DNA of 64,000 nt from Ehretia macrophylla (lineage: Eukaryota > Streptophyta > Magnoliopsida > Boraginales > Ehretiaceae): positions 10,281,001-10,345,000 of the forward strand of contig CM075778.1 of NCBI GenBank assembly GCA_037974665.1. Reading direction: 5' to 3'. Shown here piece by piece: positions 4,226 to 64,000 of the stretch. Below the pieces are notes generated by a model. The model saw only the letters and a list, made by a program, of their open reading frames with translations, made no database searches and was not told where the DNA came from. The stretch's first letter is position 1. Each line of letters opens with the position of its first letter. The position numbers and the translations under genes were made by a program.

Positions 4226-7200
4226 TGTCACGCCCCGACCCTTACCTATCGCTAGGCTAAGGCCTAAACGCGACGTTTGTAAACAATAACACATGAAATT
4301 GAAAGCTTTGTAACCTATACAGTCTTTTATATAACATAAAAGTTCAAAAGTCTGCCAATACATCGGTCTTAGAGGTTAATCACAACCTGTTACATATACA
4401 CAAGACCACGATCCTCCTGTTCAAGCATAGGGACTAGCCAACAATCAGGTATCTAGGTCTCCAAAGAATATGAGTATTTAACTACATAATAGTTGTTCAA
4501 AGGAATAAGTTAATACATCAAGTATTCTTAAATTACATCCACCAACGGAAATCACATAAGGCAGAAATCCTCGATGTCACACCAAGGAGTTTCTCCAGCT
4601 TTTTGAGGGGCGTGCTCTAGCTCAACCTGTAACACTCAGGCCTAGCATATAGACATGTTATTAATATACATACATAATTATTTCATTAATTGCACAATCA
4701 TCGAAAAACGTGCAACGAAAATTGGTTATATTCATTCAATTTATATTATTTGTCTTGTCGAAATAAATGTCTCATTATCTTATTTACTGGAATTTCTTTT
4801 ACTCATATTTAAATTGATTTAATTTCACCCTTTTGTATGTGGGGCCCCGTCCCCGGGGATAATTATTTTATCTTATTATTGTTTATATTTATTTAAATTG
4901 TATCTAATTTTTTAAATGTAATAATTAATCCCTATTATCGCTATTTGTATTTAATTAATTTAAATTTAAATGACTTTTCAGGACAATCATCTTATTATTA
5001 TATTTATTTAAAACCATTTTACGTACCCTTAAATTAGTTGTTTTACGGTTCGTATGTGAAACCTAGACCCAAAAAAAAATACTTTATTATTATCGTCCCT
5101 TATTTTTACTTAAATTGTAATTAATTAACTTACGAGATATAATTAATTATTATTTTTATTAATTGAACTTGCCCGGGACATTTACTTTGTTATTTTATTC
5201 ATTTAAATTTATTTCATATACCTTTTAACTAATTCATTTTATCGTTCAATTAGGGAGCCCGGGCCCGGAACTGAACGAACTATTTTGAGTATTTTAAATA
5301 TTACATTTATTTAATTCGTGCATGAATGAATTGCATAGAATACTTAATTCCATTATTCTTATCGTTGTGTTTAATTTACTTTACATTATTAATCTTAGGT
5401 TGCATGTTAACCACACACCTAATTCAACTAAGTTAATTGAATAAATCCTAGCCACATAGATTAAATAAATATCTCACCTACTCAACACACACCACACATG
5501 ACATTATTCACACACAAACACATAACATAAACTCTACATACTCACACACCCACCCGTCGGACCAAAAGAAAAAAAAAGAAGAAAGAAAGCATAGAACAGA
5601 AGGCAGAGCTCGACAGAGACAGAATAGGAAGACCAAAAGAAAGATTTTGACCATTTTAGCTCAATCACAAGTCCTATTTTGCATTTTCTAGCTAAAATCA
5701 AGGTGAGAGTTTGCATTTTGTTTGTTTCCTTGAAATTATAGAACTGCTAAGTTTTTGAAATATTGGTTTTAATTGATTTATGTTATAGATGAGCTAGCTA
5801 GTGTGATTTTATGCTTAACATGAGAAGTTGGCGTTGTATGCTTGCTTAAATGGGTAGAGCCGTGTAGTTGTTGTTCTTATAGTGTTGAATTGGAAGATGA
5901 AACTTAATGAAGCTCTAATGTTTGACTTAATGTGTCAAAGAGTGTTGGCTAAAGCTAAAGCTAGTAATTCCAAGTTTTTACATTATATTAATGCAAGCAA
6001 ACTGAATCAATTAATTTTGATAGGCGTTGGTGGCCTGTGAAGGTTGCTGGCAGTCCCTTGAGGCTACCTTGTTCCCTTGTGCTATCCACTCTTGTGCTAT
6101 ATGACTAAGATTGAGTACGTAACATGTTATATGTTAGATTTTCCTTGTTTTAAATGTTGTAGTATCTTGTTATTATGTTGTATACACACACACACACATA
6201 TATATGTATATATATGCGATGATTCATGTGTAGTAGAGTTTTAAAATTAGTTTTTGTAGTGAAATAATTGGAAAAATAAATGAGTTATGAAATCTGGAAA
6301 ATTGGACAGATTTGCATGTCTGCGTTGTAGGACCAATTTGACCTAGCAAACTTTGATGAAATTAGCTGAATTTCGGATATGTTGTAGTAGATTCATAGTA
6401 GAACAAAAGTGTATTTCTAAGGTTTGGCCAAATTCTAGCTCTAAGTACTCATTTTTGGATGGTTTCTGAGAGGCATGTGAAATGGGCGTGAACTGGACAG
6501 TGCTGCCAGCGTTTTTTTTTTCCTTTCCCTTGTCCTCGTGTGTATTGGTTACAAGTTAGTTCAGATAGTGTAGTTTTAAATTTAGTTTATGTATAAATGA
6601 CTAGGTTGGTTGGTAGTTAATTGAGGTGATTAATGAGGAGATTATAACTATATTAAGTTGTCACTAACCAAGTGTTAAAATAAGTTATGAGTTAGTTCAA
6701 GATAAGTTAAAAGCTAGATCATAATTGGATTATTTGACCTTGAACTAGTAAAGGATTTAATGAGCTTAAGGGTAAGAGATATAGTTGACTTGAATTGAGT
6801 TACAATTGTCTAGCTTGATTAAAATGGTGTAATTTAAATCAATTAATGAAAGGTTGTTGGAATGAAAATGTATTACTAGCTTTAATTTTGGAAAGGAAAA
6901 TGTGTGAAGATAAGAATAACAAGAAGTTATAAGAAGCTTTTACTTTAATGTGTTGCTGATTCTAAGCTAAACATTGTTAAATCTATGTTAGTTTGTCTTA
7001 CGATTGACGCTAATTGCTTTCATTACTTATATTTCATTGAATTATACTTATCTTATGTGGGTTAACTTTTATGTAAACTAAAAGCTATGGTGATGGATTA
7101 AGTTATAATGAAATAAAGTATGTAATATAAATTCTTGGATGTGAAAGATAGTTGTTAAACCTTTTATAGTCAATTGCTAAAGTGTTATATTTATATGAAA

Positions 7201-10176
7201 ACTAGGGTATTTATATTCAAGCTAACCCAAGGAAAATTGGAGTAACTAAGTCATTTTTACATCTTGAGGCTTGGTAAAGGTCTTCATCTCTTCTGTGTAT
7301 CTTAACTTGATTTATTAATTCTAAATTGAATTATTTAGTAGTTGATAAAATTTATATGTATTATTTTACTTGCTATCTTGAATCTTTTCGTGTTATTTGT
7401 GATTAACTACGAGGACAACCTACTTTGTCGTTCCTCTTATGTGGTATTTGATATACTTGACTCTTGTGATCTTGACTCGGGGTTGTGCTACTTTTTCGGA
7501 CATGGTAGCGTCGAGAAACACGGGCGGCGTTAGGCTTGCCGTGCTCCCTCGACTATCATGGTGCCTATTCTCTTTCTCTCGCTGAGTATACTCCACTACC
7601 TCAGAAGCGTAGTTCACCTCGTTAGGGCATATGGACCTACCTCAAGAGAAAGGGTCGTAGGATCGGGGTACATCCGGAGTACCCCATTTTGGAGGAATAA
7701 GGGTTTGCCGGCACTTGTTGAAGATCTTGGCTCGTGGCTCGTGATTGAAGACAAATGTGGAACCGTATTCTTTTTATATGTGGTTAAATACTTGTCTAAC
7801 TAGCTTTGTTATTTTGTGTTATATATGTTATTATCCTTGTTGCATCTCATGAAAGCATTCCTCGGTATGCTGCATCACCTCTCTCACTGAGTATACCAAT
7901 TGTATACTCACCCTCGTTTCTAACACCTTTCAGGTTCAGTACCTTCGCAAGGTGATACAGGGAAAGCTCGAGAGTTACTATGTTTGGTTGTGTTGGCTTC
8001 CATTATTAGTACGTGCGAATCCATGTGAATTAGTAAAGTGACTTGAATTGTAATTTGATTGGAACTATAGAAACCCGGCTTGTAATTGTATTGGATCTTG
8101 TTTGTATTTGATTTGTAGGTGGCCTGTAATAGCTTAATGGACTATGTTATTGTTTAATGGTCGTGCATGCTTACTTAGGTTAGTGGACTTAATAGGGTAG
8201 ATTAATAGACAAGACAATTGAAGAGATAAAGTTAGAATGGTTTGATATGTGACTTTATAACATAGTATTTCAATATTTGAGGCCTATGCATGCTTGTGTA
8301 CCTATTTTGTTAAGTCTAAGGCTTGGATGGCCTTGAGACGGGGCATAGCTTAATGGTTGAAGTTGGAATGTATGAGAATGTTGGATTATGATTTTGTGAT
8401 TGTATTCTGTTATTCGCAGGTTATTGGATAGTCCTTTAAACAGGGGAGACTCCGTCCTTTTTTTCTAAATTTCGTGTCGGGGTTTGAATTTTGGTTGAGG
8501 GTAGTATGATTAATAGAGGTCCCGGTTCCGTGAGGAATCGGGGTGTTACACAACCTCTCATGAAATGTTAGAGAAAATGGTGAGTTTTACTTAGCTCAAT
8601 GAGGGATAAAGAGGAAGGGAATTTTTACAAAGGTTTTATCTTTTGTAAGTAGTTTGATAAAACATGTCATGCACATAAAAACGCACAGATGATCATAACA
8701 AGAGTGTGCATTAACAGTCATGTAACATTTCTCTTCTAAGATATCATTGGATCCCGGCAAATGAGTTATCTTGGAAAATCAATGGGTCCTAGCAAGAGAA
8801 GGAGTCAACACTTTGGTAGTCGAGATATACCGGCAAGCCCGTCGCTGCTCAGAGGTCCCGTCACTACCCCAATCAATAATGGTTGCAACCGCCGCGCATA
8901 AACAACTCACACACATAACTTCAATCAATGCCACAAATATTATTAACCAGTGATCATCGTTGTGCAATGCAATTGAAGTTGACAAGTTAGAAGATATACA
9001 ATGCATTCATATGTTACTTCCACGTTGTGAGTCATTAGCTAAGCATTAAGCATCAACTAATCACATAAGACCTTTAAAAAGGTGCAAACATATAAGCTGA
9101 AACAGGGCATGTTGGTCGAGTAGTCGAGCGATTGACTTGCCCGGCTTTACTCGACCGGCTTGTCCAAAGAATGAAGGTTAATACCAGTTGAGTAGTCGGG
9201 CGAGTGACTCTCGGCTTCTCATTCGGCCTGGGTAAAATCAACCCGTAAAATCACACCATTTTGGCTCATAACTTACTCGTCTTGCTACCAATGTTCCCCA
9301 ACCACTTAGTGCACTCAAAAGGGTTATTAGATCACATAATCAAGCTTACCAATCATGGTATAACACCCTTGAATCAAACCACAACAAAATAACACTCGAA
9401 CATCAACAATTGCTCAAGAACACCAACTTTACCAATTAGGTTCTCAAATGTTAGGATCTTGCCCTCTAACCTTGTATGCAAACTATATCCATTCCAACAC
9501 TCCCAATATCACATTTAATTCATCACACAACTCCTAAAATTCATCCACACAAGTTAGGCAAAATCTTAGGACTCAACACACAAATACACCCAATCTTCAC
9601 ATTGAGCTCATGTATGAACACCACAAGCAAGGTTAATTAACAATATACAACATACAACCTTGGATGAGCTTGACAATATATTTTGAAAGAATCCTTCACC
9701 TTAGTCTTGGAATTTGAAAGTAAGATGATGCAAGAAACTACAAGGAAATGCTTGAAAATGAAAGAGAATGACTTATTCTTCCTTCATTCTCTCTTCTTCT
9801 TCTTCCCTTTCTTTCTCCTTCCTTGGTCAAAAATTTGAGTGTGTATGTGTGTGGTACATGTTATGTGTGTTTTTGCCTAGACAAGAATAGTGTTAAGATA
9901 TTTTGTAATTTTAGCCTAAGGACAAGAGTGTCCCTCAACTAGCTTATGTATTACTAGTTTGGCATTCTAGTTGTTTCTTGACTAGTTCGTTGTTATTCTA
10001 GGTTAGTAAGGCTTAATTAATTCCTACAATATATAAGACACTTAAATGCACGTAATTCAAGGTAAATGCATATAAATCAATATAAAAGCACATAAAATAA
10101 GGTAAATGCATATAAAATGATTTAATTATGTATGATATGATCTACATGCATATGAGGTCTCATGCTAGGCCTTACA
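4226..10176 (-). mobile_element. 3' LTR of the Tekay element, interrupted by a nested solo LTR
   Basis: Reads TGTCACGCCCC at the left and GGCCTTACA at the right on the plus strand, so in element orientation it is TGTAAGGCC to GGGCGTGACA. Without the insert at 4628-8550 and its duplicated CAACC it is about 2.03 kb, matching the other LTR. A donor-like AAG/GTGAAGGATTC lies on the minus strand at 9699. Confidence 0.9.
4628..8550 (+). mobile_element. Solo LTR (Tekay-like, about 3.9 kb) nested in the 3' LTR
   Basis: The insert begins TGTAACACTC and ends GGTGTTACA, with perfect 5-bp target duplications CAACC at 4623-4627 and 8551-8555. It has no coding region, primer site or polypurine tract, so I read it as a solo LTR, related to those at 50090-54162 and 48498 onward. 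It carries the inverted-repeat block at 7501-7560, the stem-loop at 7889-7909 and a TTTCAGG site at 7928-7934. A donor-like CAAG/GTGAGAG lies at 5703, which would define a 2.2-kb intron. A (CA)n/(TA)n microsatellite lies at about 6181-6215. Confidence 0.85.
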
Positions 10177-13650: not shown

Positions 13651-14750
13651 TTTGTCTTAGAGCACCCCTTATAGGCTGATTCTGTACACCCTTGTTCTGC
13701 CACCTCGGACAATCCCTAGCTTGGTGTTTATCACTTCCGCACCCCAAACACATGCCAAGTTTCTTCCAACACTGAGCTTCCATATGACCTTTCTGGTTGC
13801 AATAACTGCACATAACATTCCGGGCAGTAGTTGCACCTCCTAGTGTTCCACGAACTACTTGGGTGGCTGGGATATTAGGCTGAGGCCTAGTAACTGCTGG
13901 TCTGGCCTGATCCTGGGGATTCTGGGTCTGGAATGCTTTGGAATGACCCTGAGTCTGAAAGGGCCTCTTGTTCTGCTGAGACAGACCAACTTTCATTGTT
14001 AGTTTCTTCTCATTTATCCTTGTTGTAGACGCAAATACAGCATTATAAGTATCAAACTCCACTATTGCCTGCCAATCCTGAATTTCAAGTCTCAGCCCCT
14101 CAGTAAATTTCCATACCTTGGTGGTCGGGGTTTGGACCATATGTGGTGCATACTGGGAAAACCTATCAAATTTCGCCACATACTCAGCCACCGTCATATT
14201 TCCTTGCCTCAGGTACATAAACTCTTTCATTTTCTTATCTCGGGAGAACTCAGATATGAATTTACTCTTAAACGCTCTGACAAAGTTTCTCCAAGTGTTG
14301 GGAGTATGCTAAGCCTCCCATTGATCTCTCACTGCATTCCACCACGTTTCAGCGTCACCTTCTAACTGAAAGACTGAATAGGTGACCCTTTTCTCATCTG
14401 TATAGTCCTGTGTGGCATAAATTTTCTCGATCTGAGATAGCCAATATTCTGCCTTTTCATCATCCGTCTGGCCCATGAACTTTGAAGGATTATAAAACAG
14501 AAAATCCTTGAGGTTATCACTTTCCCTATTATCTTCGTTTCCGCCACTGTTACCAGCACCATGATTGTTGTTGTTATTATTATTATTAACCGTTGTTGCT
14601 GCCGCTATCGCTTGTTGTTCTATCACTTGACTCTTTCTATCTATAGTAGTCGCCATCAAATTGAACATCACCACTCTAGGATTAGCTTGATTCGCATTCT
14701 AGGGCTCTTGAGATCCAGTGTTACTACAAGTGTTACGACCTGCCATCTAT
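13650..14750 (-). mobile_element. Tekay gag region with zinc knuckle (fossil)
   Basis: Gag-like sequence includes DDEKAEYWLSQIEKIY and the Pro/Gln-rich linker before a CCHC zinc knuckle (CSYCNQKGHMEAQC) and a second Cys/His cluster (CLGCGSDKHQARDC). The N-terminal part has an Asn tract encoded by a short AAC/AAT repeat. It is broken. Confidence 0.82.
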
Positions 14751-15002
14751 AGATATAGAATATATACTACCCACGGTTATAGGTTATGCATTCATTATAT
14801 GACAAATGAATATATGCATTAACAATATCCCTATCACCCAAGTTACACATAGACAAGAAGCAAGTATAGCACGTCAAGCACATAGGTTCATATAAGCATA
14901 TAAACACTAAACAAATTTTATCTCGAGGTTTCTACCCACTAACCAGGGGTTCTAAAACCCGGACTACGCTAACTAAGGCTAGTTTTATACTAACTAAAGC
15001 TA

Positions 15003-15024: not shown

Positions 15025-17061
15025 TGTCACGCCCCAACCTCTACCTACCGCTAGGCTAAGGCCGAAACGCGACGTTCGTAAATAATAATACATGTAAATT
15101 GAAATCTTAATAACCTATACAATTTTTTGTATTCCATAAAAGTTCAAAAGTCTGCCAATACACTGGCCTTAGAGGTTAATCACAACCTGTTACATATATA
15201 CAAGACCATGATCCTCATATTCAAGCATAAGGACTAGCCAACAATCAAGTATCTAGGTCTCAGAAGAATATGAGTATTTAACTACATAATAGTTGTCCAA
15301 AAGAATAAGTTAATACATCAAGCATTCTTAAATTACATCCACCAACGGAAATCACATAAGGCAGCAATCATCGATGTCACACCAAAGAGTTTCTCCAACT
15401 CCTTGAGGGGCGTTAAAGAAAAAGGTGAGCTACACTTAGCTCAATGAGGGATAAAGAGCAAGAGAGTTTTTACAAAGGTTTTATCTTTTCGTAAGCAGTT
15501 TGATAAAACATGTCATGCACATAAGAACGCACAGATGATCATAACAAGAGCGTGCATTAACAGTCATGTAACCTTTCTCTTCTAAGATATCATTAGATCC
15601 TGTCAAGTGAGTTCTCCCGAGGAATCAATGGGTCCTAGCAAAAGAATGAGTCAATACTTTGGTAGTCGAGATATACTGGTAAGCCCATCGCCGCCCGGAG
15701 GTCCCATCATTATCCCAATCAATAATGGTTGTAACCGCCGCGCATAAACAACTCACACACATATATAGTACTTCAATCAATGCCACAAATATTATTAACC
15801 CGTGATCATCGTTGTGCAATGCAATTGAAGTTGATAAGTTAGAAGATATACAATGCATTCATATGTTACTTCCACGTTGCGAGTCATTAGCTAAGCATTA
15901 AGCATCAAGTAATCACATAAGACCTTTAAAAAGCTGCCAACATATAAGCTGAAAGAGGGCATGTCGATCGAGTAGTCGGGCAAGTGACTTGCCCGACTTA
16001 CTCGATCGACTTGTCGAGAGAATGAAGGTTAATACTGGTTGAGTAGTCGGGCGAGTGACTCGCCCGACTTCTCTTCCGGCCTGGGTAAAATCAACCTGTA
16101 AAATCACACCATTTTTGCTCATAACTTACTTGTCTTGCTACCAATGTTCCCCAACCACTTAGTGCACTCAAGAGGGTTACTAGATCACATAATCAAGCTC
16201 ACCAATCATGGTATAACACCCTTGAATCAAACCACACAAAAGAACACTCAAACAACAACAATTGCTCAAGAACACCAACTTTACCAATTAGGTTCTCAAA
16301 TTTTAGGATCTTGCCCTCTAACCTTGTATACAAACTATATCCATTCTAACACTCCCAATATCACATTTAACTCATCACACAACTCCTAAAATTCATCCAC
16401 ACAAGTTAGGCAAAATCCTAGGACTACAACACACAAACACACCCAATCTTCACATTGAGCTCATGTATGAACACCACTAGCAAGGTTAATCAACAATATA
16501 CAACATACAACCTTGGATGAGCTTTGACAATAGATCTTGAAAGAATCCCTCACCTTAGTCTTGGAATTTGAAAGTAAGATAATGCAAGAAACTACAAGGA
16601 AATGCTTGAAAATGCAAGAGAATGGCTTAATCTTCCTTCATTCTCTCTTCTTCTTCTTCTTCCTCTTATCTTCTTCTTCCATTTCTTTCTCCTTCCTTGG
16701 TCAAAAATTTGAGTGTGTGTGTGTGTGGTGTGTGTTTTTGCCTATACAATAATAGTGTTAAGATATTTTACAATTTTAGCCTAAGGACAAGAGTGCCCAT
16801 CAACTAGCTTATGTATTACTAGTTTGCCATTCTAGTTGTTTCTTGACTAGTTAGTTGCTATTCTAGGTTAGTAAGGCTTAATTAATTCCTACAATATCTA
16901 AGACACTTAAAATGCACGTATTTAACATAAATGCATGTAATTCAAGGTAAATGCACATAAATCAATATAAAAGCACATCAAATAAGGTAAATGCATATAA
17001 AATAATTTAATTATGTATGATATGATCTACATACATATGAGGTCTCATGCTGGGCCTTACA
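15025..17061 (-). mobile_element. 5' LTR of the Tekay element
   Basis: 2,037 bp, TGTCACGCCCC to GGCCTTACA on the plus strand. On the minus strand it has a donor-like AAG/GTGAGGGATTC at 16553, the stem-loop GAGCTA-AGTG-TAGCTC at 15427-15442 and an inverted-repeat block at about 15658-15716. It is uninterrupted and pairs with 4226-10176. Confidence 0.9.
15963..16068. repeat. Two strong palindromes in the 5' LTR
   Basis: 15963-16010 is a near-perfect palindrome, with arms of 23-24 bases starting GTCGATCGAG and one bulged base. 16046-16068 is a second palindrome made of GTCGGGCGAGT and its reverse complement around one central base. Both share a GTCGGGC core. The counterpart in the 3' LTR (about 9116-9230) is more decayed. 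Confidence 0.85.
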
Positions 17062-40864: not shown

Positions 40865-43800
40865 TGTCACGCCCTAACCCGACCCCGCCTAGGACCAAAT
40901 CAGGACGCGATAGAATTTCGGCATTATGACGTTTAGAACATGACACTTTGACAATACAAACTTGTACATTTATTCATATGGCAACAATATAACCAAACAT
41001 TACATAAACTCGAACCTCTCAACATACAACAAAATGCACTTAGCCATCCGCCACACTTACTTTAAACAAGGTCATAAAGGTACATGAGTTCAAAATAGAC
41101 CTTCATGTGACTAACATTATATATATGACTAAGAAGACTTAAAACATTACAACAAGGGTCCATCAAACTACCAAACTTTAAAGTAGACCACAACATATAT
41201 ATTACATATTTATGAGAATTCAAGAGACTCCAATACAATACGAACTATAAAACTCTAGGGTAATATCCAACAAGCACATCAACATCCATCAAACAAGGCA
41301 AGTAAGCCATTACTTTAAACACCTCGAGACACGGTCTTAATTCCACCTGAAATGTTAGCAAACGAGGTGAGCTTACACAAGCTCAATAAGGGGGGAGAAA
41401 GGAAGGTTTTGAATACATTTGAACTTTGAAATCCCTTTGAAAACATGCATGTAATATCATATGGAAACAATGAGTATAAACAATACATAAACATTAAGCA
41501 TTTGAATATAGTTGGCACAAGGACGTATAAACCATATGACCACGTACAAACATTGAAATAATATACAACCATTAAGCACATAAAGCTATATGTAAGCATT
41601 TTAAACATTTAGACATTTAAAGGCAATCAATTCATTAACACATTCGAAATGATACGTTCACTTTGTTGATGTTGCACCATTATCACGAACTCTTTCCCTT
41701 TACACCGTCATCACGAACTCTACCATTCTTCTTGTCATTGACACATTCAGGAGTTGTACTATAAGGCCTGGCACGAAACCCCATATGTATATCATATAAT
41801 TTAATATGTGTTTATATCGATTTACGTGCATTTACATCATTTGACGGGTATTTGTATTGGTTAACGTGCATTTATGAGATGTAGATATATTAGACATTAA
41901 TTAATTCTATAGTGTCACAGCAGCTAACTAAATTAGTTAGAAACTAACAAAATGGCAAACAAGCAAAATGCAAACTAGTTGAGGGCACTCTAGTCATTTG
42001 GCAACTTTAGATATTATTCTACCTAACAAAACACATATATACACTACACACACACACGATTTGCACACACACATACACACTACACGATCAAGCTAAAAAG
42101 GAAGAAGAAAGGAGAAAAAGAAGAAGGGAGGAAGGAAGAAGAAGAAGAGGAAGAAGAAGTTTAAGCATTTCCAAGCCACTTCAAGATATTCTTGAGCTTT
42201 CCTTGCATTTTCTAACAATTTTCTTGCATTTCTAACTCTTGCAAAGGTAAGGATTCTTTCAAAATCTTTTCTCAAAGCTCATAGGTTATATGGTGTATAT
42301 ATATGTTATTTTCTTGCTTATGGTGCATAAACTAAGAGCTTAGTGTGTGAGTTGTTGTATCATGAATTGTTTGAGTTAGGGCTTCATCTTGTATATGCAT
42401 ATAATGATCTTGATGAGTTGAGAAGTGGTAGCATGACTTAGATGATGATCTTGCTTGTGTTGAAGTGTGTATAAATGGTATGCAAGAGTGAAAATAGTAG
42501 TTAAACATATTAGATCTTGATTGGTGTTTTGGTGTTCTTGGAGTTATTGGTTGGTTCATGGGTATTGTAGCTTGATTCATGAGCTTCTAAGTGCCGTATG
42601 TTGAGGCCATTGAAGTATGTTAAGTGCTTAGTTAGAATTGGGAGCAAGGAAACTTGTTGAAAGCAAATGACCATTTTCACGTTTTGTCTTTGCAGGAGGC
42701 GGTCTTGTTACCAATTGTGTTCAACATGACCAGGTACACCCCTAAATTTTTGAGAAGCTCTCTGACGGTCGTGTACCGGTCATGATCAACATGACCGGGT
42801 ACACGACTGGGTTGCACGAAATATGTCCTCTTGTGGTTATGTGTTATGGCATGCTATGTATGAGCGTGTTGAGGCTTTAATTGTCAAACGTTATAGGTTA
42901 AATGCCATATAAATGTGTTGATAAGTATCGTACATGTTATTATTCAAGTATACTTGTGATATTACTTATGGTACTTCAATTGGTATATATGCAAATTGCT
43001 TTATGCTCATCCATTATGCTATTGACAATTGCTCTTGTGACGGAGGCCACCTACTTTATTGCCTCATTCTTGTTATCTTCTTATGTTACATGCAATTGTG
43101 TTTGGAATATGTGTACGAGGCAAGGTTGCAACCATTCTATGGGCATGGTAGCATTCGTTTTCCTTGGGCGGTATCGGGCTTGCCAGTAGGTCTCGACTAC
43201 CATGATCCCCAATCCCACTCTTGCTTGGATTTTAACCCTTGGAGAGGTAGGTCGTAGGAATTGGGTATATCCGGATTACCCTATGATATGGAGTAAGGGG
43301 TTGATAATGATGACCGATACACGGCCGGCCGTCTCCAGTAATTGCAAGACAACTGTATCTTTTTAATCTTATGTTACCACTCTTGCTTAGGCCCTAGTCC
43401 TTGGAGAGTTGGGTTATATGTTATTGCTATCTGGTTAATTGATCATGTGTGCATGGCATGGTTTTCTAAATGGTTTCGAAAGGATAAAACACTTGCGAAA
43501 ATCCCCTTCCTGATATCCCTCATTGAGCTAAGTGTAGCTTACCCTTCTTTCTACAATTTCAGGTGAGGTCGAACCCGAGCCGACTGTATAGGTCGAGGGT
43601 GAAGCTGCTTTGTGTGAAGAAACAAATTTATGTCTGATGTGATTCTTGCTTGTGTCTATTGGAGGACTCTTGCTGTAATAGAATTAAATATGTACTTGTA
43701 TAACTTGATACTTTGTAACTATATTCTTTTGGATAACTGGGGATGTAACTAACTTAATACTTTATTCTTTTGAGACCTAGAGGTCGTTGTTGAGGTTGTA

Positions 43801-45802
43801 TCACGTGAAGATGAAATATTAGGTCTTGTATATATTGAATAGGTTAATGCAAATATAAAGTGCCCCGGGAGTTGGGCTATCTTTTTGAGGTTTCTTATGG
43901 TATACAAATTTTGTTAGGTTATTAATTCATGATTTACAGGTATTAAGTTAATCGACTCGTCACGTTCCGTCCTTAACCTCTGCGGGTTCGGGGTCAGGGC
44001 GTGACATGTACTCCGGCACATTCGGGGGTTGTACACCGGCACATTTAGGAGATATTCTCTGGTACATTCAGGTGACTTAACACCGGCACATTCAGGTGAT
44101 TTTACACTGGCATATTCAGGTCCATGGTAGTCATGCCAATACACCGGCGACATCGGGCCACCCGGAATGGCACGATGCTACCAGGTCGTGCTTAACATTC
44201 GCATTAAACATTCACATTCAACATTCATATTCAATCACATAATCATATTTAACATTCACTCAACAACGCATTTCCATTTAGAACACAGTAATTAGGTAAC
44301 AAAGTAAGTTACCCAACCATTAACAATTACTTTCAACCCTTAACCAGTTCCACCAAAATTGACGCTATACTTGAGCATAATCACAAATACAATACAATAG
44401 AACTCAATAGCTTTCAATTCAACACTTCAAATCATTTACAACACATGACCACAAGCATTTAGCGATTCTTTCGTATCCAACAAGGCAATCCGTTACACAC
44501 ATGCACGTCTAACTTTTAAGACGCAAAGCAAGCATTTAACCACAAAAAGGGGCAGCCTATACTTAGCAACAACCTTTAACAACACTTCAATTCTACTTAG
44601 TCACCACTTTAACAATAACTTATATCAACATACTTTATAACTTACAATGTAATACACATAAACAAGCATTCATCTAGCATTTAGGGAGCAATTTGAGCAA
44701 GCAATTAGCCCACTAAGAAGGCAGCCCGTACAACAATACATTCAAACAGCACTTAAAACCAACATTTAGCACACTTACATCCACATTTAACAACACTTTT
44801 ACCAACACCTTTCACATTACCAAGCAAGTAACCCAAGATTTATATAGCATTTGAGGACCAAAACAAGCATTTTAACCATGCAAAAAGGCAGCCAAAAGGC
44901 TGCTACAGTGACTACCCACTTCGCTGGAAAATTCAGCCCACTCATTACATTTCCTTCAACCTTCTACCTTGCTTCTAAGCTCCTAATTCATGCTATGAAT
45001 ACATATATATGCATATAAACTTGTTGTTTATGCTATGAACAAAATTTGAACCCATTTATAGCCATAAAATTCAAATTATAACACATATTAGCAAACTACA
45101 ACAATCTATGGTTTAATCTAGCTAAAAATCAAGTATGTTGCTCTCAAGACACTATATAGCAAGAATTTCATGCACATACAACCATATATAACATATATAT
45201 GCAAGTTCATAAAATAAACCTCAACTTTAACTTTAAGTTTGGAAAAGTCCCTCACCTTTTGTGGAAAGAAATGCTAGAAATAGGTAGTATGCACCTAGAA
45301 TATGCAAGAACGAGCTCCAATTTAAGTGCAAAGGCCTTTGATATTCTTCTTCTTCTTCAATTTTTGATCAAAACACAAGGGTTTCACTATTCACTCAAGC
45401 CCTCTTTCTCTCGACTGAACTAGGATCTTTTTTGGGGTTTTTGGCTTTTATTTTTATGTTATATAAGCTTAAGTGAAGTCAAAGGAAGGGTCAATGTTGG
45501 TCAATGCAAGAAAAAAGGTCAAATGTCTAAGTTAGCCTTGCATTTTACTTCTAATTTCAAGTTTAACACTCTAGCAAATATCTAAAGTGATAAAAGACTA
45601 GTTTGGGCATGTTTTTGGCTAGTATTTACAAATGTACGCTTGTGTGGTCAAACTATAAGAAAAGTCAATTAAATGCAATTTAAATGAACTTTAAATGCAC
45701 CTTTTATATTCAAATAACAAATAAATTATGTAAATGCACATATTATGCCAAATAATAATTTAAAACAAGTAAATGCACATAAATCCATGCCCGGATCTCA
45801 CA
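40865..45802 (-). mobile_element. Tekay-like solo LTR with a second solo LTR inside
   Basis: Reads TGTCACGCCC at the left and GGATCTCACA at the right, with perfect 5-bp target duplications CATAC (40860-40864, 45803-45807). Without the nested insert it is about 2.7 kb and non-coding. On the minus strand it has a donor-like AAAAG/GTGAGGGAC at 45255, the stem-loop GAGCTT-GTGT-AAGCTC at 41369-41384 and an acceptor-like ACATTTCAG/G at 41347. The inverted-repeat block is at 44122-44185. Confidence 0.85.
41760..44006 (+). mobile_element. Tekay-like solo LTR, nested
   Basis: Starts TATAAGGCC (one base from the TGTAAGGCC start of the Tekay LTR), ends GGGCGTGACA, and is flanked by TGTAC on both sides (41755-41759, 44007-44011). 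Its 2,247 bp compare with 2,037 bp for the full-length element. A GA-rich leader at 42095-42160 precedes a donor-like GCAAAG/GTAAGG at 42247. The stem-loop is at 43525-43540 and an acceptor-like ACAATTTCAG/G at 43562. Confidence 0.85.
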
Positions 45803-48497: not shown

Positions 48498-50089
48498 TGT
48501 AACACCCCGATCTCTCACGGAACCGGGTCTTCTATTAATTATGCTATACTCAACCCAATTCCAAATCCGGACAGAAAGTTTAGGAAAAACGGATGGAGTT
48601 TTTCCTATTTATAGGGTTAACCAAAAACCTGCACATAACAAGTATAACCACCAAATCATAATCCAACATCCTTAATCAATCCCATCTCTCGAATACCACA
48701 ACATTATATAATTTACTATGGGCATCCGGGCCCTTCTTCCACCACAAACTAAAACACACAGGTATGCATTCATTAACAGTTGAAGTTCTATGTTTTTAAT
48801 TTCACTTATCATACTACTCTAATATTATTTACTTAACTTTCTTATATTTCAGGTCCTTCAACCCTCTCTCATTAACCTATACAAGCATGCAAACTACTAA
48901 GCAATAAAGTAAAGCCATAGAAGTTATTACAAGCCCACTAGCACCTAACCATTGTACAAGACTAAAACTTTAATATTACATTCCTTAAGATAACACAAAT
49001 ACATACATGACCATAAGGTCTCAAATAGAATACAAGCATATCATGATTACATTCTTCCATGTTCTACACACTGATAGAGCAAGCAGGCCATGTAAGAGGC
49101 AATCCAATCTCCAGCTTTTCCTGAAACATGTTGAAAAGAGGAATGAGTAACCCAAGTTACTCAGTGAGGGAGGGATACGGCTTACCGAGGATTTTCGCAA
49201 ATCTTTTTGTGCAATACGACAACAATACAAGTAATCAAGTAATTCAATATAACAATCTAATTAAGCCATATATGAAACACATTTAAAAGGATATTATTCA
49301 TCTTCTTTGTCTTCGATCTCGATCCACGAACCTCGATCTTCGATAGTAAATGCCGGCAAGTCCCCTTATAACACCAATGGGGTACTCCGGATGTACCCCG
49401 AATCCTACGACCCATTCTTCTTAGGTAGGTCCATATGCCCCAACGAGGTGAACCACGACTCTGGGGTATGGGAGTATTGTTGGAAAAATACATGACAATT
49501 AAAATAATTGCGCAGTGGAAAATAAATCATGTATCCGTCCATGTTTAATTATGCAGATTTAAATTAGATAACAATTTAATCTAATTAAATTAAATCTACA
49601 ATAGTTTTAGGATTACCTCTTGAAGCGTAATTCAATGTAGAATCTGAATCGAGCTCCCCACGTGTGAAGCCTCCAAGATTGATCCACACAGAATCTGCAC
49701 TTGCTAATTGGATTTCTACCCCCACTAGGTTTCTAGAGAAATCCTATATATTTTTCTGACTGATGAAATTGTGCTAGCTATTGTCTGTCAGAATGATGCA
49801 ATATATAGAAGACACATCATGACTTAGGGTCATATGTGGACTGGACTAATATAACCAGTCTTGGGCTCCATATTAATCAGATCATCATCTAATTACTACA
49901 AGCCCAATTAAATTAATATTTAGGACAATCCTAAATTTAATTTAATCTTTTCTCTAATCTAATTAATCTGTAAATTCTATTTGTGTGTGACCTCTCGGGT
50001 TCATAATTAATCGGTAGCGAATAATTAATTCAACTAATTAATTAAATTAGAACTCTTTCTAATTAATTCGCAAATCGTGAGTGACACCT

Positions 50090-53000
50090 TGTGACACCCT
50101 GACCCAGCATGTAGCGAATAGTACTTACTTGCATGTACTTATGTGTTTACTTTAAATATTTGGTTATAATTACATGTTTATGTTAATTTATTCATTTATT
50201 TACACTATTTTTTACATTTCTTGAAATACGTGCAAACAATATTTAGTAAATTTAAATGAGGCAATTACCTTGGTAAAATAATTATTAAAAATTATTTTAT
50301 TGCATTTAGGTGCTAGTTTATATTATTTTCAATTAATTGAATAAGTAGCACCCGAGCCCAGGTTAAATTTTCAAGTCTTCTATTTTTCTAAAATTTTATT
50401 TTTCTCATGTTACTTGGTATTTATCTAGTATTCGTTCACTGAAAGTATGTGCATAGTATATCTAGAACGTGAAATATAAAACAGTTAGTATCCCCTAGTG
50501 AAAAGTATAAGCTAGAATGCATTTTGGGTCATTTGGTGTTTTATCTTTATTTTGGACTAACTTTAATTATTTAACTTCATTTCTCTAAAGCACATAGCCT
50601 AATCTTCTATCTACATATAAACACATAAAATAACTATTTTATTATTTTATTATTTTATTATTTTATTTACTAAAATTTACATTATTAACATTTTAATTGA
50701 TTTAAAATTACTATTTGAATGTGAAGTCCCGAACCCGAGAATAATTATTTTTATTATTATCACTAATTGTATTTGTTTAAATTCTATTTAATTGATTTAC
50801 ATAAAATAATTAATTTATTATTTTTATTATTTGTATTTATTTAATTTATATTTAAATAATTTGTCCGAGACACTTATTCTATTATTTTAATTATTTAAAA
50901 TTGCTTTACATGTCTTTAAATTAATTTATCTTACTGTTCGAACGAGAAGCTCGGGCCGGGATCTAAACGAACTGGCTTATTATTTTTAGTAAAAATATTT
51001 ATTTATTTGGCCCGAACCTGAATGAGCTATCTTAGTATTTTTAGTAATAAATATATTTATGTGAATTTTATCTAATTACCAGAAACGATTATCTTATATT
51101 TATTACTTGTTTATAATTAATTGACTTAGTTTTTCCCGAGCCCAAAGAGGCTTTTAATTTCTTATATTTAATTATTTTGTGTGCATATTTGGCTTAGTTG
51201 CCCTTTGTTTGGTATTATTTGCTTTTATATGTTTTAATTTTTAGGTTTAACTTGAGCCCGGGTAAAAATTTTAAACTGCTTTATTTTTGAAATTTGATAT
51301 TTTTTCCCTGAACAATACTATATTTAATTTATTCGTTCATTGCTAGAATGTGAATTTCATGTCCTGAGCGCGAGGAAAATAAATATTTTTATTGTCCCCA
51401 AGTGAATAGTAATATTTAATTACTTTGGACCTTTAGTATTCATATTAGTTTCTACTTAGTTTTATAGCTCAATTATATTTAATAGGATCCCAATCCATTA
51501 GTTAGGCCATTTATTTGCTTAACGTATATATTTGTACATATAGTAGTTAGTGGACTAAAATAAAGCATAGTAAAATGAAAAGAAAAGAAATTTGATCAAC
51601 AACAAAAAAATAAAAAAATAAAAAATGTGAAGGCCTTTTGAGCAGGTTGACTTCTTTCTTCATTTTGCTTCCATTCTAGCTTGGATTAAAGGTGATTCTA
51701 GCTATTTTTTTTCATTTCCTAGCTTTACCAAGTGAGGGAGTTGTATTTATTTGAGTTTAAAGTTTATGTCAACTTTCTAAATTTTGTGATTTGTTAGAAT
51801 TAGCTATTGAAATGCTTAAATATGAGGTTGTATATGTTTTATATGTTGTTCAGACTATGCTTGTGTAGTTTGTTAGTAAATTTCATGGTTGAATGCATGT
51901 ATTTCACGAAGAAGACAATGAATAGTGACGAATTTTAGAGTTTTACTATAACTTGTTAATTAGAGTGAATTGAGGCTTCAATTAGGTACTTTAGACAATA
52001 ATGGAACTATTAAACACTCGCATATAGTTAGATTGCTCGAAAATGAGTTAAAATGAGAAATTAGCCAACTTTTAAAAAGGGGGTTTTCACGTAACGTAAT
52101 CCGGGCACGTTTGGGCTTTAGTTTAGGTATTCTTGGGGCATGAAAGCAATTTTGGTGCTTTCGTTGTGTGAATTTGGGGTTCAGATAGGGTAGTTGTAGT
52201 TAAAACCCGCTCCGGGCCTTCCCGAGCTTTTGTATTCAAAACGGGTTTTCATGACTTTGATAGGTATCCTTTGGCTTAATTAGGAATGTAGAATGATTAA
52301 ATTGTGGTTTTGTAACTTCGAAATGCGTATAGGAGAAGAATAACTTGGTTAAATAAAGGAAAAAATAGTATTTGACTACTTTGATGCTTACAAGTGTTGT
52401 AGATATATTATTATGTACTTATATGATTATTTAATGTGTAATTGAGCTATTTGAGAAGGTTGTGGGAAAAGATAAGTTGTTTGCCTCTTTTGGGATTAGA
52501 ACCTTGAATTTCGTATGGAAGTAAAATTGCTTAGTTGTCAAAGGGAAAATAGTGTCAAAGTTTAATTAAATGTTAGAGACTGATGTCTAATTGATTGATT
52601 AGGTGTTTATATGCATTTGTATAGCATGTGTATACCCTATTGGTAAGGTTTGTCATTTGAGTTGCTTAGCTACCTTGTTAGGATATGAGCATATTTTGAT
52701 TGTATTGTTATATTACTTCTAAATTATAACTATATGCGAGGACGTTAATGAGTTAAATGCATGCTAGAGTATGAGAGGTACATGATAATTGTATTATATT
52801 ATAAGTATATGTTCTATTACATGTTAGGGTTGATCCATTGAGCCAATCCAAGGTGTTGAAAGTAGACTGACGCTAGTTCTTGTATCCTTTTGCTACCTGG
52901 TAGAGGTGAGGGAGTCTTCATCTCTTTTGTGCATCTTAATTTATTTTATAGTTTCTAGATTATATTATTAGTAATTGATAAAGTTTATATGTATTACTTG

Positions 53001-54162
53001 ATTGCTATCTTATGTCTTGTCATGTTATCTGTGACTAACTGCGAGGGCGGCCTACTTTGTCGTCCCTCTTACGTGATTTGATATTCTTGCTTCTTGTGAT
53101 CTTGACCCGGGGTTGCGCAACCTTTTCGGACATGGTAGCGTCGAGAAACACGGGCGACATCGGGCTTGCCATGCTCCCTCGACTACCATGGTGCTTATTT
53201 CCTTCTCGCTGAGGCATACTCCACTACCCCAAAGGCGTGGTTCACCTGCTGGGCATGGACCTACCTCAGGAGAAAGGGTCGTAGGATCGGGAAATTTGGA
53301 GTATCCCAACTTGTTCGAGTAAGAGGTTTGCCGGCACTTGCGTGAAGTTCGTGGCTCGTGATTGAAGACTTGAAGTTGAACCGTATCATTTTTAATGTGG
53401 TTAATTACTTGGCTATTTAACTTTGTTGGTTTATGTTGTATATATATGATTTCTTGTGTTTGCATATCATATTGCACGCCCGATATGTTGCATCACCTTC
53501 CTCACTGAGTAACTTGGTTACTCATTCCTCTTTTCAACATATTTCAGGAAAAACTGAAGATTGGATTGCCTCCTGTGTGACCTGCTTGTTCTATCAGTGT
53601 GTAAAACATGGAAGAATGTGATCATGATATACTTGTATTGTATTTGAGACTTTGTGCCCATGTATGTATTTATGTTATATCAAGGAATGTAATATTAAAG
53701 TTTTAGTTTTATTTGATGATTAGGCACTAGTGGGCTTGTAATATCTTCTATTTGCTTTACTTTATTACTTAGTAGTGCATGCTTGTGTGGACGATAAAAA
53801 CTAATTAGTTGGTTGGACACAAATTATAAGAAAGCTTGATTGATATTATAGAGTGGTATGATAAGTGTATTAAAAAGATAGAACTTCAATGAATTTAATT
53901 TTGCATGCTTGTGTGATATGTTGTTGGGTTCCAAGGCTCGGATGGCCTTGAGGAGCTGGTTGGCTTTATGAATCTTGAAAGCTAGGTTGTATGAATGGTT
54001 GATTGTGATTCAGGTCTTGTATGTGACTGTTGGCAGGTTTCAAGATAGACCTATATATAGGGAAAACTCTGTCCGTTTTTCCCTAAATTTCGTGCCCGGG
54101 GTTTGGATTTGGGTTGAGTATAGTTTGGTTAATAGAATTCCGTGAGGGATTGGGGCGTTACA
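50090..54162 (+). mobile_element. Tekay-like solo LTR nested in the copia LTR
   Basis: Starts TGTGACACCC and ends GGGGCGTTACA, with perfect target duplications CACCT (50085-50089, 54163-54167). The copia 5' LTR at about 61738 shows the site without the insertion (GACACATAGCAG). It is 4,073 bp and non-coding. A donor-like TAAAG/GTGATT lies at 51692, the inverted-repeat block at 53131-53190, the stem-loop GAGTAAC/GTTACTC at 53507-53523 and an acceptor-like TTTCAG/G at 53547. Confidence 0.88.
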
Positions 54163-54605
54163 CACCTAGCAGTGTATCACGATTACCCAATTAAAGATGA
54201 AGTGCAAGCATGCGAATCCAAATAGTAATTTTTATACAATCAAATCCTACTGTCTCAATTATCCCGATCAAGCCAGAGTCATGGATTGGGTCGTTAAACT
54301 CTCTTACTTGACCATATGTCAAAACCCAATTAATTAGTGACTAATGAATAATTCGTGAAACGACTTTTACTATTCCACATTGGCTAAGGATTTCAAGTCA
54401 CTTAATTAATCAGATTGCATAGGACACCCAAATGACAGTTTCTGTGTCTACACATACATTTCTTCATGACGGAATAAATCACAACCACTAAATAATTGTC
54501 TAATCCATTATTAGGACTAGCTTATCTGCACCAGCAAATCATGGCATTCCTAATCATGAGATAATCGTAGTGTCTCAGGTCTGAGGATTAATTGCATAAT
54601 TACAT

Positions 54606-54646
54606 GATACAACGAATTATTGACATTCCATGTAATTCGTTGTATC
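54606..54646. repeat. 14-bp perfect hairpin in the copia LTR
   Basis: GATACAACGAATTA and its exact reverse complement are separated by 13 bases. The copy in the 5' LTR at 62183-62223 is identical in both arms. Confidence 0.92.
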
Positions 54647-55029
54647 GGTGGTCAAGTCCAGTTACTTATTCACAATAAGTACTTATACATCTACTATAAC
54701 GATATGAGACAAATCGCCCAAACTGATATCTCATATAATTTGGTTAGTAGACTGTAATCCGATCTATCCAGATAAACTAACGCCCAATTAGTTTATCCTA
54801 TGATCGGGGATAACTTTTAGAATATATTTATGATTATAGATTCTGTTACTCATATTCTTACTCCTAATGATAGAATCTATAAATAGTATTCTAAGGACTT
54901 TATTTATTCAATCAAAACATTTATAATAAATAAACAAACTGCCCTTATTAAATGAATTAATAAATTAAATAACACATTATTCATAATTCCAAAATACAAT
55001 TTATTGACTTTTGGGCATTATTCCTAACA

Positions 55030-55044
55030 ATCCCCCACTTGCAC
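55030..55044 (-). promoter_or_regulatory. Polypurine tract of the copia element
   Basis: GTGCAAGTGGGGGAT on the minus strand directly before the 3' LTR start TGTTAGGAATAA. Confidence 0.8.
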
Positions 55045-55066
55045 TAAAGCCAATCAGAATGGTATC

Positions 55067-55770
55067 TCATACCCATCCCCCTAAGTGTCGATCCAAAAAC
55101 TGCTTAGTCAGAGCCTTGGTCAACGGGTTAACAGTGTTATCTGCTGAAGATACTTTATGCATCACTATGTCGCCTCTTCCCACAATTTCTCGGATAATGT
55201 GGTAACGTCTCTCTACATGTTTGGATTTCTGGTGAGACCTTGGTTCCTTAGCTTGCGCTATCGCTCCATTATTATCACAATGCAAAGACACTACAACCTC
55301 AATGGAGGGCACCACTCCGAGTTCTGAGATGAACTTCTTGATCCAAACTGCCTCTTTTGCTGCATCTGATGCTGCGATGTACTCAGCTTCTGTAGTGGAA
55401 TCTGCAGTCGTACTCTGTTTGGAACTCTTCCAACTGACCGCTCCTCTATTACAAATGAAAATGAATCCAGATGTGGATTTACGATCATCTACATCAGACT
55501 GAAAATCCGAGTCAGTGAAACCCTCGATTTTCAATTCCCCTCCTCCATATACCAAGACCATATCCTTAGTCCTATTTAAGTATTTCAGGATATTCTTGAC
55601 TGCTATCCAGTGTTCCTCTCCTGGATCTGACTGATATTTGCTAGTAACACTTACAGCATGAGCGATATCAGGCCTAGTACATAGCATGGCATACATAAGG
55701 CTTTCAATTGCTGAAGCGTATGGAATCCTATTCATCCTATGTCTTTCTTCAGCTGTCTTAGGACTCATAG
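55067..55770 (-). mobile_element. Copia RNase H region (fossil)
   Basis: Encodes IPYASAIESLMYAMLCTRPDIA, GFTDSDFQSDVDDRKSTSGF, AEYIAASDAAKEAVWIKKF and KSKHVERRYHIIRE, the standard end of copia polyproteins. Confidence 0.9.
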
Positions 55771-55822
55771 CCCTAAAGAGATGAATGCTATGTCTAAAAG
55801 GTAATAGCCCCTTTTTAGAATC

Positions 55823-56470
55823 CTACATGTTAAACCTTTTTAACACCTTATCTATGTACGTACTCTGAGAGAGACCTATCAATCCTTTCGATCTATCTCT
55901 ATAGATTCGAATTCCTAGGATATAGGTTGCTTCTCCCAAGTCTTTCATGGAGAATGTTCCTGATAACCAGACCTTGACAGATGTCATCATACCAATGTCA
56001 TTCCCAATCAGTAGTATGTCATCTACATACAAGATAAGGAATGTAACTGCTTTATTGCTGACTTTCTTGTAAACACAAGGCTCATCTTCATTCTTAATGA
56101 AGCCAAAAGTTCTGACGACCTCGTCAAAACGTTTGTTCCAACTCCTTGAGGCTTGTTTGAGTCCATAGATGGATCTCTTTAGCTTGTACACTTTGTGACT
56201 TTCACCCACGGATTCAAAACCCATCGATTGTTCAATATAAATGTCTTCTTCAATGAAGCCATTAAGGAAAGCCGTTTTGACATCCATATGCCATATCTCA
56301 TAATCATAGTATGCAGCTATGGCCAATAAAATCCTAATGGATTTGAGCATTGCTACTGGCGAGAAGGTTTTCTCATAGTCAACTCCTTGTCTCTGACGGT
56401 AACCTTTTGCCACTAACCTTGCTTTGAAGGTCTCCACCTTCCCATCTGCACCCCTCTTTCTCATATAAAC
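55823..56470 (-). mobile_element. Copia reverse transcriptase region (fossil)
   Basis: Contains FKARLVAKGYRQRQGVDYEKTF, WHMDVKTAFLNG, YGLKQASRSWNKRFD and the catalytic LYVDDILLIGND. DLGEATYILGIRIYRDRSKG is typical of the Angela-like group. Confidence 0.9.
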
Positions 56471-56760
56471 TCATTTGCACCCAATAGGTACCATACCCTC
56501 AGGTGGGTCTACAAGATTCCAGACTTGATTGGTGTGCATTGAATCCATTTCTGATTTCATGGCTTCAAGCCATTTTCTGAGTCCCTATCAGAAATAGCTT
56601 CTTCATAGGTTGGGGGATCATCAATATGATCACCATCATCTAATGTGAACAACTCTTGTCCTTGGCTATGAATGTAACTATATCTCGTAGGGGGACAAAC
56701 AGTCCTTAAAGATTTGCGTATCTGTGGTGAAGTAGTTGGTTTTTCTTGAATAGTTTTATC

Positions 56761-58214: not shown

Positions 58215-59019
58215 ACTCTTGAGGTACTCTGGACAATTCCTCTTCTAATGTCCTTCCTTCTCATAATGAAAACAAGTTACAGGCTTTGCAACCTTCCCTT
58301 TTTTCTTGGACACGCCTCCTGTAGGCTTGCCCTAAGGGGCCTTTTTACCTTTCTTCTTGTTTCTTTTTCTGCTTCTTAGCAGATGAAGAAGAGGCAAATG
58401 TCAACACAGTTTCCTTACCTTTTCCTTTCATCTGCCCCTTGATATATAACCAGTATATTCAAGAGCTGAGGTAAGGTGCGCTTAATGTCATTCATCTGGA
58501 AATTGACAATAAAGGAATGGAAGGATTCAGGTAAATATGAAGTATCAAGTCAGTCTGTAAGTTCGAATCCATAGAGAAATTCAAGGATTCAAGACGCTCG
58601 ATCAAACCGATCATCTTAAGAACATGCGTATTGACATCTGATCCCTCACTCATCCTCAATCGGAACAATTCCCTAGATATCTCATACCTAGCAACCCTGT
58701 TCTTTACACCATACAACTCTTGTAAGTGTTTGATGATTTCAGTGACATCTTCTATGTCCTCGTGTTGACGTTGAAGCTCATTTGTCATTGAAGCCAAAAC
58801 GTAGCTTTTGACCTTCAACGCATCATCACGCCATTTCTTAATGGTTTCCAGTTCCTCTTCAGATGCCCCTTGAGCCTCTTCAGGAAGTGGACCATCAAGC
58901 ACGTACTCAATCTTTTCAAAACTCAGTATGATTTTCAAGTTACGGAACCAATCAGCATAATTTGGTCCAGTCAAACAGTTCTTATCTAGGATAGTTACAA
59001 GATGATTCTTTTTTGACAT
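58215..59019 (-). mobile_element. Copia gag region (fossil)
   Basis: Starts MSKKNHLVTILDKNCLTGPN and contains YADWFRNLKIIL and LHIYLNP, typical of the copia gag (UBN2-type) fold. A basic, Lys-rich, Cys/His-containing stretch lies towards the protease. Confidence 0.85.
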
Positions 59020-60601: not shown

Positions 60602-60674
60602 CCACCATGGCTGCACCCTGCAGCCATGGTGGCTGCCTCGGCAGTGGCGTTGCCTCCAAGGCAGTGCCACTGCC
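60602..60674. repeat. Two strong hairpins in the G+C-rich leader patch
   Basis: CCACCATGGCTGCA and its perfect reverse complement flank a 3-base loop (60602-60632). GGCAGTGGC (60640-60648) pairs with GCCACTGCC (60666-60674). Confidence 0.9.
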
Positions 60675-61117: not shown

Positions 61118-61130
61118 GGCTCTGATACCA
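61118..61130 (-). promoter_or_regulatory. Primer-binding site of the copia element
   Basis: TGGTATCAGAGCC on the minus strand, one base after the 5' LTR, complementary to initiator methionine tRNA. Confidence 0.88.
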
Positions 61131-61131
61131 C

Positions 61132-62606: not shown

Positions 62607-64000
62607 AGTATACCTCAGCGAGAGAGAGAATATATATCATGGTAGTCGAGCTAGACCGACAGCCCTATGCTACCCGGAGTTTCTCGACACTACCATGTCC
62701 AAAAGGTTGTACAACCCGATATGAATTTGAGAATTCACGGGATAACATAAGATAATCTCAAATAAACATGAGAAATCACAAGATAGCAATATAATGCAAC
62801 AACACATAAATGAGGGACAACAAGGTAGGTTGTCCCCAATCATGATATAGCAAGTAGTAAGTGCATATAAACTTTATCAATTAAACTAAATCATACAATC
62901 CAAGAGTAATAAAATAAGCCAAAATGCACAAAAGAAATGAAGACTCCCTCACCTCTACCAAGCTCCAAGATGCAAGTTTGGGCTTCACTTCATTCTCAAA
63001 CACCTTGAACATAAAGTTAAACATTACTTCAACTACCTTTTAACTACAACAATCATTAATTATCAATTAGTTTAGTTAACTTATAGTTTACCTAATTAAC
63101 ATACAATGTTTATTAAAATCCCATCTTTAGTAAAATGTCGCATTTATATACTTTAACTTAACATTCAACCTAAGTAATCATTCAAGTAGTTAAGTATACA
63201 AGTTATAGTCATAACTTCACACATACAATACAATCTACAAGCAATGTAAATAATATAACAAGATATAAGCATGTTCACTCAATTGATAACAAGTATACAT
63301 GTAGTTCAATTCACGAACTCCTCTATCAAGATACATGTACTACGCAAATACATTTAAACACCTTATTAATCAATTATAACGCAATTATAACAACAAGAAT
63401 CATAGCTAAATAGGCAATACTAGTTCAATGCAAGAAAACTATAAAACACTATTCATACTCTAACTTCTAAAGGCTACTACAACCAAACGAGTTACGAGAT
63501 TGGGAAACCGACTTCATTACCCTCTCTTAGACACGTTATGGCACGATTCTACACTACGAAACCTCACTTTTCCAACAGTACCCCGAAAGTCCACCTAGCA
63601 CGTTTGAACTACAGCTATACTAATTGAACATCCAATCAATGCCACAATTGCGCTAAAAGGGCTTCCATGCACATACAAGGCAAACCCCCAACTCAAAATG
63701 AGCACGGTCAACACTTAGTCAAACGACCCCTTAATCTCATGAACACAATTCAATGCACGTGCTAGCTACAAGTTTCCTAATTCATAAACCAACTATATTA
63801 CACTTCTAAATACAGTTTATGGCATCATTTAGAACCATGAAATCACACATTTAATTATGTTTAACCGAAAATCCCCAAATGCCCCTAAGTGCGTTTGAAC
63901 TACAAGTACCCAAATCAAACCCCAATTTAGCGCCATAAAAGCATGTTAAGCACCTACTCACCTAATAAACACTATCCATAGCATTCATTTGCACCTAGAT

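Follow-up and report, generated by a model that had tools for sequence, protein, structure and literature searches.

Retrotransposon architecture of the window

The window, 64,000 nucleotides (nt) of contig C15 (CM075778.1, positions 10,281,001 to 10,345,000) in the 1.58-Gb genome of Ehretia macrophylla, holds nested long terminal repeat (LTR) retrotransposons whose LTRs carry donor-like and acceptor-like splice motifs. The element layout was derived by self-comparison of the window, and relatives were fetched from the same genome. Element F was full-length, lay on the minus strand and was split by the solo LTR A. A Pfam scan of three of its open reading frame (ORF) pieces returned Retrotrans_gag, Ty3_capsid, RVP_2 and RVT_1, with the integrase-end domain SH3_Tf2-1 last on the minus strand; the integrase core itself lay outside the scan. 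With gag, aspartic protease, reverse transcriptase and integrase last, F is a Ty3/gypsy element. The Pfam listing for its last ORF held no chromodomain, and 'Tekay', the label given in the initial annotation, is kept as a name only. LTRs A, B and C had been annotated as solo, and each was flanked by a target duplication. In the nested insertions at 48498-62607, solo LTR B was located in a copia LTR and the copia element in LTR E.

4628..8550, plus strand: solo LTR A, target duplication CAACC, in the 3' LTR of F
10176-8567 plus 4613-4226, minus strand: 3' LTR of F from self-comparison, donor at 9699
15025..17061, minus strand: 5' LTR of F with donor (16553) and hairpin motif (15448), acceptor lost by deletion
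41760..44006, plus strand: solo LTR C inside LTR D, flanked on both sides by the target duplication TGTAC
50090..54162, plus strand: solo LTR B, target duplication CACCT, in the left LTR of the copia element

LTR C and F were 66-68% alike over about 500 nt, and A, B and E matched one another at 72-80%. D and the A/B/E group were tied to F only via the donor, hairpin and acceptor modules.

Donor site and leader

Donor and acceptor had been annotated at 42247 and 43562 in C (plus strand) and at 45255 and 41347 in D (minus strand). Both pairs were present, as were the donors of F at 16553 and 9699 (minus strand).

42247..42252, plus strand: donor of C, AAG/GTAAGG, closing an ATG-poor leader
45250..45255, minus strand: donor of D, AAAAG/GTGAGG

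Donor conservation was calculated from 50 genomic matches, each admitted by a BLAST match spanning the site. After the short loci L001-L008 had been dropped, six window copies added and near-duplicates removed, 36 copies remained. GT was retained in 34 of them. Positions -3 to +6 showed a mean majority of 0.91, compared with 0.53 at -60 to -16 and 0.64 at +21 to +60, and the annotated contrast between the site and its neighbourhood was borne out. Across whole LTRs, conservation was ranked in an alignment of 18 diverse copies, none of type A, B or D, chosen from 33 alignable ones. The donor 9-mer was outscored by 54 of 2140 windows (GT in 16/18) and the acceptor 9-mer by 108 of 2140 (AG in 15/18). 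Donor and acceptor are among the most conserved spots of the LTR, and are not the sole ones.

In the 150 nt that end at the donor there were 23 ATGs where 40.4 were expected, a ratio of 0.57 against shuffles (Poisson P 0.002), at a density of 0.28-0.61 per 100 nt. Directly after the donor the density was 2.94, with 159 ATGs against 160 expected (ratio 0.99). Exon 1, the leader up to the donor, looks like an ATG-poor 5' untranslated region. For LTR A, 40 matches were listed and all except A itself covered the acceptor side only. Its annotated donor-like site at 5703 exists and is a candidate donor; the acceptor annotated as its partner at 7933 was confirmed. Scans of viral contigs with the donor motif and with the hairpin motif gave 0 matches each.

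Acceptor site and adjoining hairpin

An acceptor preceded by a hairpin motif was located in each of the LTRs A to E.

43557..43562, plus strand: acceptor of C, TTTCAG, exon 2 from 43563
43524..43541, plus strand: hairpin of C, TGAGCTA..TAGCTTA, 5' of the acceptor
41347..41352, minus strand: acceptor of D, TTTCAG, hairpin TGAGCTT..AAGCTCA from about 41385
7928..7933, plus strand: acceptor of A, hairpin motif from 7883
53542..53547, plus strand: acceptor of B, hairpin motif from 53501
49121..49126, minus strand: acceptor of E, hairpin motif from 49168

The AG of the acceptor TTTCAG/G was retained in 26 of 30 LTRs. The claim that both ends persist through the drift of these LTRs held, and their identity as splice signals gained support. 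The less clear acceptor annotated for F was traced to a small deletion in the 5' LTR and a substitution in the 3' LTR (TTTCAT), which leave F without an acceptor in both.

The hairpin, TGAG...CTCA, lies about 17-45 nt 5' of the acceptor. Its inner stem pairs differed by family (CTA/TAG, TAAC/GTTA, TATAC/GTATA or CTT/AAG), and these differences are, judged from the sequences, compensating changes. It ranked first among the stems of 21 of 30 LTRs. The mean best stem measured 6.8, compared with 5.1 in mononucleotide shuffles, and the mean folding z was -1.91, with values below -1 in 22 of 30. Three exact hairpin-start patterns occurred at seven places in the window, all at LTR acceptors or at the lost acceptor positions in F. 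The 3' arm often contained CTCAC or CTCAT, which we take to fit the plant branch-point consensus and to be a candidate branch point. Masking of the branch point by the hairpin would keep splicing partial. GT and AG borders in consensus context are, on their sequence, those of spliceosomal introns, and it is quite likely that these LTRs hold conserved, functional splice signals.

A conserved stretch 36-162 nt 5' of the LTR acceptors, just before the hairpin, showed mild codon periodicity. As a coding exon it was rejected, with no suitable donor seen by eye after it.

Candidate coding frame in exon 2

The sequence opened by the acceptor was read in all three frames. At offset 2, exactly 25 codons preceded a stop in 22 of 37 LTRs, and in a second sample the stop followed codon 25 in 27 of 36. 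The copy in C is decayed.

43563..43640, plus strand: exon 2 of C, C-terminal coding frame at offset 2, in-frame stop at codon 9

Peptides from single copies, each followed by a stop, were EVEPEQAPQDAGETPWCDIEDFCLM (L030), EAEAEPTVQVEGDESLCDETDFCHF (L020) and EAVPDQAPQVDDGELWFDENDFCLL (L126). The exon-2 peptide is acidic and aromatic. For 26 non-redundant copies the ratio of nonsynonymous to synonymous polymorphism (pN/pS) was 0.45 in the exon-2 frame, compared with 0.83 and 0.96 in the two others; 10 of 39 had been set aside because they belonged to types A, B and D, were damaged or could not be aligned. For 36 further copies it was 0.52, compared with 1.02 and 0.98, in a second sample drawn from the match lists of the joined-junction searches described below, with at least three mis-anchored rows (L106, L107, L140) kept. 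Third codon positions were the most variable in both samples, and in a scan of all LTR windows the exon-2 window ranked first for codon periodicity. In unspliced RNA the frame would be closed upstream within 14 codons in 28 of 37 copies (median 11). Types A, B and D showed other, less clear frames; the coding signature was seen in the C/F-type families. In these, exon 2 appears to combine an open frame, a fixed stop and purifying selection. That the LTR codes for the terminal exon of one of the element's proteins, a real tail of 25 residues, is a serious possibility just short of probable.

Candidate partners of the two LTR sites

A second acceptor-like site was found at the start of gag.

14748..14761, minus strand: acceptor-like TTCTATATCTATAG of F, directly before the gag ATG (14747)

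Each of the 18 elements read had such an AG abutting its gag ATG, for the most part within TTCTATATCTATAG; L020-L022, three of these elements, are nearly identical to one another. Mean majority was 0.89 at -25 to -1, compared with 0.78 further upstream. Because the 265 nt before this AG contained 6-19 ATGs and the AG touches the gag ATG, splicing from the LTR donor to it would yield the cleanest mRNA, and it appears better placed as donor partner than the LTR acceptor. With its ATGs not depleted (ratio 1.07-1.38), exon 2 would serve gag poorly as a leader. An in-phase stop stood directly before the donor in 11 of 37 copies, so exon 1 could not feed the exon-2 frame there. The spliced LTR leader of the initial annotation fits the ATG-poor exon on the donor side and not the exon on the acceptor side, with its ATG content and coding frame. 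The LTR donor and the LTR acceptor need not pair.

Donors that could feed exon 2 from the coding region were scored with weights that we presume to represent donor sites. The integrase C-terminal candidate of F, CTG/GTAAGT at 10526, was rejected, as GGC stood there in 3 of 3 relatives. The pol stop codon lay inside a donor-like AG/GTAA in 6 of 8 ends seen (L013, L017, L025, L029, L031 and L044), and this motif was absent in F and L036. It was discarded as a coding donor because its phase gives an immediate stop in exon 2. A splice from this AG/GTAA into the LTR acceptor would retain the stop at the same place.

A second donor-like module in the A/B/E group

LTRs A, B and E had in common a second donor-like module. 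It reads AG/GTGAGGGAGTCTTCATC and lies some 650 nt 5' of the acceptor; the form in A, near 7279 (plus strand), was altered.

52906..52921, plus strand: second donor-like module of B, AGAG/GTGAGGGAGTCTTCAT
62937..62952, minus strand: second donor-like module of E, inside the window
51728..51743, plus strand: place in B homologous to the main exon-1 donor of relatives, in variant form

For E, the annotated acceptor at 49121 (minus strand) stood, while the donor had been placed outside the window; a donor-like module at 62952 (minus strand) lies inside it. For B, the acceptor at 53547 was found as annotated; the site at 51692, also present, is doubtful and probably not the main donor. The relatives that were read carry a conserved main donor, CCAAG/GTGAGGGAGTT, about 39 nt downstream of it. 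Some relatives also carried an acceptor-like CAG and a micro-exon of about 13-16 nt ahead of the second module.

Exon 1 ran straight into the second module in 4 of the 40 matches listed; the four lie on C7 and include the query locus itself. In these copies (C7:61429149, C7:71455787, C7:71486253 and C7:61449678; L057 and L081-L083) the segment between the two donor modules is gone. Two of four fetched B-like copies were readable at both ends and had about 1.5 kb there, starting with GTGAG and ending with AG. The missing segment is bounded by a 10-bp direct repeat, two copies of GTGAGGGAGT. The four C7 copies were not accepted as proof of splicing, given this flanking repeat and the loss of the micro-exon of some relatives as well. 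Repeat-mediated recombination and splicing explain the loss equally.

Clustering of related LTRs was observed elsewhere in the genome. Eight C-type LTR matches lay within about 3 Mb of C18 (39-42 Mb), all on the minus strand. On C5, A-type exon-2 matches were about 3.94 kb apart, near LTR length (22001394/22005329 and 29512930/29516873), which suggests tandem LTR-LTR arrangements.

Proposed model and alternatives

The elements probably make spliced messages. The explanation we lean towards, and hold to be somewhat probable, joins exon 1 to gag and places the use of the LTR acceptor in the 3' LTR; we infer in it that splicing occurs, how the sites pair and what role the tail has. The family would use spliceosomal signals to make spliced mRNAs beside the unspliced genomic RNA. 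Both LTRs carry both sites, and the donor would serve at the left end and the acceptor at the right. Splicing from the exon 1 donor to the acceptor at the gag ATG would skip the upstream ATGs and remove the primer-binding site, so that this mRNA could not be copied into DNA. The hairpin-guarded acceptor would most likely be active in the 3' LTR and open the 25-codon terminal exon, an acidic C-terminal tail whose upstream exon would probably lie in gag or pol.

If the donor and the acceptor of one LTR were paired instead, an intron of about 1.1-1.5 kb would lie within the LTR, shortening the 5' leader and possibly enhancing expression. The sites keep the same order and orientation, their spacing is fairly even (1084-1532 nt in 25 of 30 copies), both are conserved, and the LTR acceptor is closer to the donor than the gag acceptor is. 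This pairing is nevertheless rather unlikely. An exon 2 that is not ATG-poor would leave gag behind many upstream ATGs, and the exon-2 frame is closed to exon 1 in the 11 copies noted above. Joined exon 1 and exon 2 sequences of A, B, C, D and two genomic families were searched, and 0 of 240 listed matches crossed both exons as an intronless LTR would. The few that reached up to 17 nt past the junction included C15:12726788 (L048), an ordinary unspliced LTR. More improbable is that the motifs are DNA or RNA control elements, such as a promoter-downstream element or a packaging or polyadenylation hairpin, that merely look like splice sites. The donor block does extend past the splice consensus (0.82 at +7 to +20 in the 36 copies), blocks elsewhere in the LTR match or exceed it in conservation, and the hairpin could have another RNA function; a generic control element would not predict both an ATG depletion that halts at the donor and a coding frame that starts at the acceptor.

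Recursive or multi-step splicing, with the LTR acceptor TTTCAG/GTGAGG and the A/B/E module AG/GTGAGGGAGTC as ratchet points in a longer intron, is likewise improbable. It would account for the juxtaposed AG/GTGAGG at both places, for the exon 1 of the four C7 copies joined to the second module and for the GTGAG...AG segment kept by B-like copies. Yet that segment lies between the two GTGAGGGAGT copies, where a recombination deletion or template slippage would do equally well, and the B family has GAAAA rather than GT after its LTR acceptor. Very improbable, finally, is the absence of any function, with sites shared by descent that drift has yet to erase. Related copies do share sequence, and the sample consisted partly of close relatives; the sites are nevertheless more conserved than their flanks, the stem changes compensate one another and the exon-2 frame appears to be under purifying selection.

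Several observations weigh against the model of separate gag and 3' LTR splices. Spliced DNA copies numbered 0 of 320 among the matches listed from eight joined-junction searches, including 0 of 40 for exon 1 joined to gag and 0 of 40 for gag-protease joined to exon 2; each search scored the best 40 candidates, and rare copies could remain. Removal of the primer-binding site by the splice to gag would explain why such copies are unseen. The conserved block at +7 to +20 is not accounted for by a donor alone. In 26 of 37 copies exon 1 has the coding phase open for some codons, and a splice to exon 2 is possible there. Frame 0 of exon 2 was open for at least 20 codons in 22 of 36 copies of the second sample, but without selection. 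The top periodicity score of exon 2 was attained in 52 of 300 block permutations (7 of 2000 for the window alone), and its pN/pS ranked third of 876 windows, with two purine-leader windows lower. Phase-1 donor candidates were invariant in gag (6/6) and at the start of the protease (7 of 9, the readable ones) among close relatives only. Compared with glycine codons in general these candidates were unremarkable (in gag, 4 of 20 glycines are all-GGT), and the rejected integrase donor of F removes a further candidate. Sunflower Tekay was not in the expressed set of one study (PMC7730604).

Relation to known systems

According to a 2025 review, plant LTR retrotransposons are generally without introns, with Ogre and EVADE as notable exceptions (PMC12786077). 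The main text of a survey of Tekay/Del chromovirus LTRs (PMC4029996) contains 'splic', 'intron' and 'hairpin' nowhere; it describes variable LTRs with conserved short blocks, as seen here. No description of splice sites or of a coding exon inside Tekay/Del LTRs was found in the literature searched, which lay mostly outside subscription journals. What appears to be new here is an acceptor that, in the main families, begins a frame of 25 codons with a fixed stop and an acidic predicted peptide. Ogre elements of legumes, which belong to another clade, have their intron between gag-protease and reverse transcriptase rather than in the LTR (PMC6317226).

If the proposed model is true, the 5' LTR donor supplies a clean gag mRNA without the primer-binding site. 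Splice signals and a coding exon in the LTRs of an abundant plant lineage would bear on the separation of translation from replication. They would also bear on why these LTRs are long and partly conserved and on the ways in which solo LTRs might contribute exons to host genes. Spliced short-Gag RNAs are known for EVADE/EVD and BARE1, plant Ty1/copia elements (PMC12786077; PMC3735527). There too, a spliced subgenomic mRNA parts translation from replication, and no DNA copy of the spliced BARE form could be detected. The introns of these elements are within coding sequence, close to the boundary of gag and protease; the sites described here belong to the LTR of a Ty3/gypsy element, to which they may add a tail encoded by the LTR. 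A parallel in plan is the C. elegans gypsy element Cer1 (PMC10309623), which has an acceptor ahead of the initiator ATG and whose CERV is encoded by a spliced mRNA of gag-derived exons and a 3' terminal exon behind TTTCAG. By a comparable plan, the 3' LTR would append an acidic, aromatic tail of 25 residues to a protein of gag or other origin.

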